Positions 1,191 to 3,015 of a stretch of DNA of 64,000 nucleotides are shown one piece after another; the first letter of the stretch is position 1, and every line of letters starts with the position of its first letter. Location: positions 1 through 64,000 of the forward strand of contig JAUNBA010000009.1 of the NCBI GenBank assembly GCA_030527325.1, in the 5' to 3' direction. A model generated the notes under the pieces. It ran no database searches, was not told the DNA's origin, and worked only from the letters and a program-made list of their open reading frames with translations. Source of the stretch: Slackia sp. GTDB taxonomy: Bacteria > Actinomycetota > Coriobacteriia > Coriobacteriales > Eggerthellaceae. The translations under genes and the position numbers were made by a program.

Positions 1191-2528
1191 TTATCCGATG
1201 CCGCCGTAGAAGATGCCCAGGACGATGACAAGCGCGGTAATGCCGACGAACAAATACTTGGTCATAGGCTCGAACCATGCGCCGATCTTCTTATCGCGAC
1301 CGGTCTGCGCCTGCTCTTTGGCGAAATGCTTCGGGCAAACCCAGAAGAACATGATCGCGGCCAAAAGCGCACCCAAGGGAATAGCATAGATAGACACGGC
1401 ATCCATCCACGTGCTGACCGCATCGCCGCTCTCGATGAACACGCCCACGCCGAATGCGACGGCGGCCACGATGGCGACGGCGGCCCAACGCGGAAGGCGC
1501 AGCTGCTCCTGCAAAGCCTCGATAGGCGTTTCGAACAGGTTCACCAGGCTGGTGATAGCGGCGCATGCGACGGCCAGGAAAAACACGAAGCAGAAGATGC
1601 CGCCGGCGGGCATCGCCTGGAACACCTGGGGCAACGCGATGAACATCAGCGGCGGGCCGGACTGCGTGTCGAGGCCGAACGCGAACACGGCAGGCACCAC
1701 GATCATGGCCGAAAGCACCGCGGCGAGCGTCGAGAAGACGACGACGTTTTTAGCAGACGAAACGACGTCGACGTCCTTTTTCAGATAGCTGCCGTAGACC
1801 AGCGTGCCGCTTCCCGCCAACGAGAGGCCGAAAAACGCCTGGCCGAGAGCGAAAACCCAAGTCTGGGGGTTCGCCAGAGCGCTCCAGTCGGGAACGAACA
1901 GGTACTTATACCCCTCGAGAGCTCCCGGCAGCATGGCGACGCGAATGAGCATGATGACGAACAAGACGAAAAACAGCGGCATCATGATCTTGTTCAGGCG
2001 CTCGATGCCGCGCGAAATGCCCAGCAGCATGACGGCGAAGGTGATGATAAGCGCCGCCGCGTGGAACCCGACGCTGCCGAAATCGCTTGCCAGCCCGCCG
2101 AAATACGCGCCCATATCGGGCACCTGCAGCAACGTGCCGGTGCCGGCGGCCACAAGGTATTTCAAAAACCAGCCGAGCACCACCGAATAGCCGATGGCGA
2201 TGCCGAGCGATCCGAGCGTGGGAATGGCGCCGACGATCTTGCCGATAGGGCCCGCATGCTTGACGCCGCGAAGCTCGAGGGCCTTGGAAAACGCCCCCAT
2301 CGGACCTGTGCCCATAGCGCGGCCGAACGCCATCTCGCCGATGACGCCCGTCAGGCCGAGCAACACGACGAAGATCAAATACGGGATGAGAAACGCCGCG
2401 CCGCCCAATTCGGCGACACGATAGGGAAACAGCCAGATGGCGCTCATGCCCACGGCCGAGCCGATGCAGGCGATGATGAACGCCGTGCGCGAGGTGAACG
2501 AATCGCGCGAAGTGGTTGACGATGCCAT
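1191..2528 (-). CDS. NSS-family sodium-dependent transporter, probable tryptophan importer
   Basis: 445-residue membrane protein of the neurotransmitter:sodium symporter (NSS/SNF) family with about 11-12 hydrophobic helices. Helix 1 carries GSAVGMSAIWLFPY, the family signature, followed by GGAAFLIPYLIF. NSS proteins import amino acids with sodium. The substrate is inferred from regulation: the 5' leader encodes a peptide with three consecutive Trp codons followed by a terminator (see 2670-2735 and 2592-2619), so Trp starvation should raise expression. This fits the bacterial Trp-transporting NSS member TnaT. The ATG at 2528 is preceded by GGAAGG; an upstream in-frame ATG at 2630 lies beyond the terminator and is rejected. 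Oddity: the Asn that in LeuT (Asn27) helps bind Na1 is Ala in helix 1 here. Confidence 0.9.
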   Translation of the reverse strand: MASSTTSRDSFTSRTAFIIACIGSAVGMSAIWLFPYRVAELGGAAFLIPYLIFVVLLGLTGVIGEMAFGRAMGTGPMGAFSKALELRGVKHAGPIGKIVGAIPTLGSLGIAIGYSVVLGWFLKYLVAAGTGTLLQVPDMGAYFGGLASDFGSVGFHAAALIITFAVMLLGISRGIERLNKIMMPLFFVLFVIMLIRVAMLPGALEGYKYLFVPDWSALANPQTWVFALGQAFFGLSLAGSGTLVYGSYLKKDVDVVSSAKNVVVFSTLAAVLSAMIVVPAVFAFGLDTQSGPPLMFIALPQVFQAMPAGGIFCFVFFLAVACAAITSLVNLFETPIEALQEQLRLPRWAAVAIVAAVAFGVGVFIESGDAVSTWMDAVSIYAIPLGALLAAIMFFWVCPKHFAKEQAQTGRDKKIGAWFEPMTKYLFVGITALVIVLGIFYGGIG

Positions 2529-2591: not shown

Positions 2592-2619
2592 AAAAGGGCC
2601 CCGGTCGCCCGGAGCCCTT
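2592..2619 (-). terminator. Attenuator terminator in the transporter leader
   Basis: The minus-strand RNA reads AAGGGCUCCGG, a GCGA tetraloop, then CCGGGGCCCUU followed by UU. This is an 11-bp stem (one G-U pair) with a short U-run, 64-91 bases upstream of the transporter start codon and downstream of the Trp-rich leader peptide. An alternative pairing is possible: GAGCUUU at 2653-2647 can pair with the 5' arm AAGGGCUC and would prevent terminator formation. This is the layout of ribosome-mediated transcription attenuation. Confidence 0.8.
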
Positions 2620-2669
2620 CGTTCATTCAATGTTTGAAACGTGACGAAAGCTCGCGATCGACCGATCGG

Positions 2670-2735
2670 CTAGAAGCTGCGCCACCACCATGCCCGAGAG
2701 GAAACGGTCGATGCGAACACGGATGTCTGGTTCAT
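2670..2735 (-). CDS. Tryptophan leader peptide (21 aa) for the NSS transporter
   Basis: A short ORF starting at ATG 2735 with a strong ribosome site (AAAGGAG, 6 bases before the start) and ending in TAG at 2670. Codons 16-18 are TGG TGG TGG, that is Trp-Trp-Trp, three codons before Phe and stop. Only the 3' flank counts as regulation: the stem-forming segments 2647-2690 and the terminator 2592-2619 follow at once. By analogy with trpL, ribosome stalling at the Trp codons when charged tRNA-Trp is scarce should let GAGCUUU pair with the terminator's 5' arm and allow read-through into the transporter. The peptide itself probably has no function. Confidence 0.85.
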   Translation of the reverse strand: MNQTSVFASTVSSRAWWWRSF

Positions 2736-3015
2736 TGCGACTCCTTTCGAGCGAACATGCGGCGCGCGGCCGCCACGACGGAAAACCGCGGCCTATGGAA
2801 GGAAGCCGCCGTTTCTTATGAGCGCCACTCTACCATAAGAAAGTGCTTTCTCCATCGTAAATCGCCATTATCGGCGGACGGTCCCGCATCATGCCGATTC
2901 CGCGCGGCGCGTCCCGACGAAAACGCTCGGACGCCCCGCCGCATCGAAGGACTTCGCAAGGCACGACGGGCGAAAGCATTGCGTGATGTGACGAAAGTAA
3001 CAAGACGGTTCCGTA

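Follow-up and report, generated by a model that had tools for sequence, protein, structure and literature searches.

Transcription attenuation of the trpL type is a classical and already known mechanism. In the enterobacterial trpL (Rfam Trp_leader), a ribosome stalled on tandem Trp codons acts through alternative hairpins, and actinobacterial tryptophan attenuators precede trp operons and trpS, as in Corynebacterium and Streptomyces (Seliverstov et al., 2005; PMC1262725). According to a survey of the amino-acid attenuators listed in Rfam, their targets are mostly biosynthetic enzymes (PMC3766115). Transporter genes are found behind other types of leader: in the Firmicutes, a Trp T-box lies upstream of one NSS gene of the Bacillus cereus group (Wels et al., 2008; PMC2494555), and the trpB motif (SRC-39-1; PMC11109978), a riboswitch candidate of Firmicutes and Fusobacteria for which a classic attenuator was mooted only as a possibility, precedes trpB or amino-acid transporter genes. 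Among the NSS proteins, MhsT of Bacillus halodurans and TnaT of Symbiobacterium have tryptophan as a substrate, the former being broad and the latter selective.

Here we describe a leader upstream of an NSS gene of Slackia that is very probably a trpL-type ribosome-mediated transcription attenuator, tying the expression of an NSS tryptophan importer to the charging of tRNA-Trp. It shares with the actinobacterial trpL the two or three UGG codons, the competition of an antiterminator with a GC-rich terminator followed by poly-U, and the shared complementary segments; however, the actinobacterial targets are biosynthetic operons or trpS, whereas the Coriobacteriales family to which the Slackia element belongs targets importers (NSS, TrpP) and trpB2, and its conserved segment is GGUC...GACC instead of gGCC-rGCy-GGCC (PMC1262725). 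Like the enterobacterial leader it has tandem Trp codons and alternative hairpins, but it gives no match at the Rfam gathering score, its target is a transport gene, and its protector hairpin is not conserved. The T-box also places an NSS transporter under tRNA-Trp charging, but it reads the tRNA directly and has no leader peptide, whereas in Slackia the sensor would be the translating ribosome. The trpB motif, similar in being a 5' leader with a terminator, is set apart, and TnaT is likened, by their published descriptions alone. The novelty lies in the RNA family, in the clade that carries it and in its dedication to import; no description of the family was found in the open-licence papers searched.

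Results and discussion

Organization of the locus

The source genome (GCA_030527325.1; 27 contigs, 1.67 Mb, ~85% complete) belongs to the genus Slackia, family Eggerthellaceae, and the nearest named species is S. faecicanis, with 95% identity of the NSS protein. The window, i.e. the whole stretch of 64,000 nucleotides analysed (contig JAUNBA010000009.1, positions 1 to 64,000), carries the features listed in Table 1. The candidate -10-like box is followed ~90 nt downstream by the Shine-Dalgarno sequence, which is separated from the ATG by a spacer of 5 nt, and 63 nt lie between the end of the terminator (2592) and the start of the NSS gene. Judging from the Shine-Dalgarno sequence and from conservation, the leader ORF is probably translated. 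The initial annotation had described a 21-codon leader with three consecutive Trp codons near its end, followed by a terminator and then by an NSS gene, and all these elements were recovered; its ribosome site is good, although the term 'perfect' was generous.

Table 1. Features of the probable attenuator locus in the window (all on the minus strand).
Feature	Positions	Strand	Evidence
Candidate extended -10, promoter-like, TATGGTAGAGTG (consensus of relatives TATGGTAAAGTG)	2826..2837	-	Similar core at about the same upstream distance in 7 of 8 Slackia loci
Shine-Dalgarno AAAGGAG of the leader ORF	2741..2747	-	Sequence; CGAAAGGAG kept in six Slackia loci
Leader peptide ORF, 21 codons, MNQTSVFASTVSSRAWWWRSF and stop	2670..2735	-	AWWWR/GWWWR kept in 8 of 8 Slackia leaders
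UGG UGG UGG, Trp codons 16-18	2682..2690	-	Invariant in 54-row family alignment
Region 2, antiterminator 5' side: CGGUCG (2664-2659) and GAGCUUUCGU (2653-2644)	2644..2664	-	Fixed position in 8 of 8 Slackia NSS leaders
Intrinsic terminator hairpin GAAGGGCUCCGG-GCGA-CCGGGGCCCUUU	2593..2620	-	Folding; hairpin kept across the family
Terminator U-tract	2592..2595	-	Sequence
NSS transporter gene, 445 aa, MhsT-like, downstream target	1191..2528	-	Pfam SNF and MhsT 4us3 match

Apparent small hairpins lie 5' of the leader, after the promoter-like box (2825-2751); their sequences vary among Slackia species while their arms look complementary. On the 3' side of the NSS gene, the gene for the bacterial small SRP RNA and part of a tRNA are located at 923-1016 and 1-54 of the minus strand, respectively.

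Conservation of the leader in Slackia

In eight Slackia genomes, the leader precedes the orthologous NSS gene (79-96% NSS identity), and all eight leaders keep WWW, CGGUCGAUCG, GAGC, GACCG, the terminator and the antiterminator. The trpL design on a transporter gene, as originally proposed, is thus upheld, and loss of the Trp codons or of the pairing in homologues, named beforehand as the observation that would speak against it, was not found within Slackia. Every one of the eight leaders has CGGUCG exactly 26 nt beyond the first Trp codon, whether its stop codon is at +18 or at +36, and the region-2 block, present in 8 of 138 family genomes, always occurs at this position. In the S. faecicanis group, with the stop at +18, region 2 is noncoding and yet identical to region 2 of those leaders in which it is coding, which argues that the RNA pairing, and not the peptide, is under selection.

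No such leader was detected in S. isoflavoniconvertens or before most NSS orthologues outside Slackia; for the orthologues of Adlercreutzia, Lachnospiraceae and others, neither sequence, model nor Rfam searches revealed a comparable leader, and no T-box was found. The leader before the NSS gene is therefore a lineage-specific acquisition. A search motif of 11 bases around the Trp codons was dropped, as it occurred too often to help. In a Dorea MAG, a group II intron domain match is located just 3' of the NSS orthologue (L025:4475-4687; labels of this kind denote loci, and G numbers genomes, of our set).

Folding of the terminator and antiterminator

The terminator has a stem of 12 bp and a loop of 4 nt, and the 47-nt stretch containing it folds with -24.3 kcal/mol (z -4.0), none of 200 shuffled sequences being equally stable. 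The antiterminator consists of two helices. In the first, CGGUCG (2664-2659) is matched by CGACCG (2607-2602), which belongs to the terminator loop and 3' arm. The second is GAGC:GCUC, in which GAGC..CGU faces ACG..GCUC of the terminator 5' arm. The competing pairing initially noted, GAGCUUU at 2653-2647, is real, but the CGGUCG:CGACCG half had been missed and the true antiterminator is twice as large.

A transcript ending halfway through the terminator folds into the long antiterminator. The ribosome was modelled as a simple footprint masking the mRNA 15 nt ahead, with its A-site on Trp codon 1, 2 or 3. When it occupied a Trp codon, the pairing of region 2 with the terminator was dominant in partial transcripts of each of the eight Slackia leaders (about 17-19 pairs), in agreement with the effect of a stalled ribosome that the initial annotation had proposed to examine by folding; when it was moved to the stop codon, the CGGUCG helix was lost and the terminator won once its 3' arm emerged. 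In the S. equolifaciens-type leaders (L011 and L012), the stop codon is shifted 18 nt farther, into region 2, which is then wholly masked. Across the family, folding gave 17.1 antiterminator pairs for a ribosome positioned at a Trp codon against 1.5 for one at the stop codon (51 of 52 sequences). In these models, the antiterminator would thus be mutually exclusive with the terminator, free while the ribosome occupies the Trp codons and masked when it reaches the stop. In the full-length RNA, the terminator is at least as stable as the antiterminator in most species, so that the outcome must be settled kinetically, as it is in classical attenuation. The protector hairpin 1:2, involving the leader ORF, is strong in the window and in L010, whereas most other Slackia leaders form it weakly or not at all; it appears to be a variable accessory, inessential to the mechanism.

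A leader family in the Coriobacteriales

A model built from the eight Slackia leaders was searched in 397 Coriobacteriales genomes and gave matches in about 120 of them at the threshold of E ≤ 0.001. Inspection of 60 matches identified 47 genuine leaders, each having three Trp codons and a region 2, together with a terminator carrying complementary segments, a count that, as all family counts here, includes many close relatives and hence non-independent events. The other 13 matches (L167-L174, L176-L179 and L201; E > ~1.5e-3) were discarded as chance, having no matching leader, terminator and tryptophan gene. All but one of the 47 leaders precede a gene for a membrane protein of ~190 aa, often duplicated, and 19 of the 21 such proteins scanned matched Pfam TrpP (PF17099, 'tryptophan transporter') at E 0.01 or better, with the L162 protein above the curated cut-off (6e-8) and that of L146 just below it. 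An ABC ATPase gene follows the TrpP-like gene in the loci that were read further (L162, L161, L158 and L146), each of the two ATPases scanned contains two ABC domains, and beyond the ATPase gene of L161 lies a CbiQ/EcfT-like fragment scoring below the Pfam cut-off. This gene order suggests the layout of a dedicated ECF importer. The Slackia element is accordingly one member of a Coriobacteriales-wide leader family residing mostly on TrpP-type ECF importers and, in some Eggerthellaceae, on trpB2.

The trpB2 sub-class, which occurs in some other Eggerthellaceae, comprises the 47th leader (L165; 2818-2916, minus strand), whose target was assigned by protein scan, and a further locus (L219; contig G126:C93:943-845), whose target was assigned by sequence likeness. 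Here CGGGUUAUCG stands in place of region 2, and the terminator loop is CGGUAAUCCG or CGGUGAUCCG, with the switch retained in silico; this swapped but complementary pair is the strongest comparative support for the predicted antiterminator. In the main class, formal covariation of CGGUCG:CGACCG was not significant (799 of 5,000 shuffles were equally good) because the helix is nearly invariant. Of the two signals expected from an alignment of homologues, the conserved Trp codons were found, and significant covariation of this helix within the main class was not. The terminator arms are far more variable, with 49 distinct pairs among 55 family members, all of which form the hairpin.

Beyond the order, 396 sampled Actinomycetota genomes yielded three weak matches (E ~5e-4) and no convincing member. 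In Rfam 15, no family reached the gathering score for the Slackia leaders, and the TrpP-type leaders gave, in E-value mode, matches below gathering only; these scans, which covered the window, 40 NSS-orthologue loci and 15 TrpP loci, found no element family.

TrpP, NSS and probable tryptophan auxotrophy in Slackia

TrpP homologues were found in four of the 12 Slackia genomes (G102, G103, G104 and G108). In G104, NSS leader, NSS, TrpP leader and TrpP follow each other in tandem, each gene with its own leader, and the same pieces are present in G108, divided between two contigs (L162 and L163 are the loci of G104 and G108, respectively). The source genome as well as G099, G101, G106, G107 and G109 possess the NSS leader and lack TrpP. 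It is plausible that the TrpP leader was copied before the neighbouring NSS gene and that TrpP was later lost.

Searches for trpA and trpC (IGPS) were negative in all 12 Slackia genomes and positive in all 14 controls. Canonical trpB was detected in one of the 12, G100, which has neither the NSS orthologue nor the leader, while the trpB match of G102 (1e-40) has the strength typical of TrpB2. To judge from these three genes, Slackia species are probably tryptophan auxotrophs, for which an importer under a tryptophan-starvation switch makes sense; and with trpA and trpC absent and trpB nearly so, the NSS transporter is probably an essential source of tryptophan. Taken together, we consider it probable that a hitherto unrecognised Coriobacteriales family of tryptophan attenuators serves mainly tryptophan import, across two unrelated transporter types (ECF TrpP and NSS) and trpB2, and that in Slackia it was copied through a tandem rearrangement by which NSS replaced TrpP as the regulated tryptophan supply of an auxotroph.

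The NSS protein and its substrate

The deduced NSS protein matches Pfam SNF (PF00209) with 6.9e-47 and 160.8 bits (cut-off 27), and its nearest solved relative is MhsT (4us3; 5.8e-58), which carries Trp, Tyr, Phe, Leu, Ile and Val (PMC9350835). The position of MhsT M236 (LeuT F259), described as a volumetric sensor (PMC9599917), is occupied by Gly in all 79 aligned orthologues, and the wider pocket this would create is consistent with a larger cargo. On the strength of the predicted regulation, the homology to MhsT, the pocket residues, the pattern of tryptophan auxotrophy and the co-regulation with TrpP, tryptophan is likely an important NSS cargo. TrpP of Corynebacterium glutamicum, reportedly not a tryptophan transporter (PMC11995493), is a name-alike and was excluded as evidence.

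A possible, although less favoured, reading retains the tryptophan attenuator and takes the NSS protein for a broad importer of hydrophobic and aromatic amino acids, with tryptophan as one substrate among several. The six substrates of MhsT (PMC9350835) point in this direction, as do the NSS paralogues of B. cereus, which are under Leu, Phe and Trp T-boxes (PMC2494555). In Slackia, however, regulation by tryptophan only, combined with the missing tryptophan synthesis genes, argues for tryptophan as the limiting cargo, and the Gly conserved in every orthologue speaks for a pocket wider than that of MhsT.

Several further features of these proteins were recorded. Ligands of the Na1 site are lost in the NSS proteins of Slackia, Senegalimassilia and UBA5906 (LeuT N27 -> A/G, T254 -> G, N286/D263 -> S; window 2528-1191, L009-L015 and L022), another difference from MhsT, whereas the Na2 ligands are retained; most other orthologues retain N, S and D at the Na1 site. 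The gate Arg30 is replaced by Leu or Met in 79 of 79 orthologues. The ion coupling of these proteins may thus differ. The source genome also encodes three more NSS paralogues (G000:C27, C6 and C1; L001, L002 and L004), ~30-33% identical and devoid of Trp-rich leaders.

Mechanism and alternative readings

From anatomy and folding, we infer the following course of events, in which stalling in the cell, tryptophan as the signal and as the main substrate, and the kinetics are the deduced components. When tryptophan is ample, the ribosome would pass the three UGG codons, halt at the stop codon and cover region 2 (CGGUCG...GAGC), upon which the terminator would form and the transporter would remain untranscribed. 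When charged tRNA-Trp is scarce, the ribosome would stall on codons 16-18 and leave region 2 free to pair with the 5' arm, the loop and the start of the 3' arm of the terminator, allowing the polymerase to read through.

The opposite response would be expected from a TnaC-like leader, in which free tryptophan stops the ribosome at the peptide's end and would thereby induce the transporter. A Trp-rich leader upstream of a tryptophan-related gene suits such a design, and tnaC itself governs an operon with a Trp permease among its genes. Nevertheless, this reading is very unlikely for a peptide with three tandem Trp codons and no terminal Pro, whose sequence past WWW varies (RSF, RGL, RCSHAVGRS, NGTQ) and which is accompanied by an intrinsic terminator and an antiterminator; a ribosome that has reached the stop codon would hide region 2 and promote termination. 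We give just as little credence to a ligand-binding riboswitch or protein-binding leader in which the Trp-rich ORF is incidental. The strong sequence conservation of region 2 (GGUCGAUCGUGAG) could be taken in its favour, but pairing with the terminator accounts for this, and in the trpB2 sub-class the sequence is different yet complementary; moreover, the UGG codons are invariant in an otherwise variable leader peptide, and no Rfam riboswitch matched at gathering score. Finally, the chance coincidence of an ordinary terminator with a short Trp-rich ORF, for which the unremarkable single-sequence folding of the whole leader (z -1.2) might be invoked, is already refuted by the conservation in front of tryptophan-transport or tryptophan-synthesis genes at eight loci of Slackia and at dozens across the Coriobacteriales, and is practically negligible also given that not one of the 1,086 ORFs of 10-40 codons with a Shine-Dalgarno sequence in 30 Markov-simulated windows contained WWW, as compared with one of 17 in the real window.

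Significance for gut Actinomycetota

The probable trpL-type attenuator provides a sequence-readable marker of tryptophan import for a clade of gut Actinomycetota, and it assigns a probable substrate both to an NSS carrier and to the family of TrpP/ECF systems. It would represent attenuation serving uptake in bacteria that are probably unable to make tryptophan. The tryptophan economy of the gut, of host and microbes alike, is of wide interest, and the switch makes the dependence of each species on external tryptophan testable.
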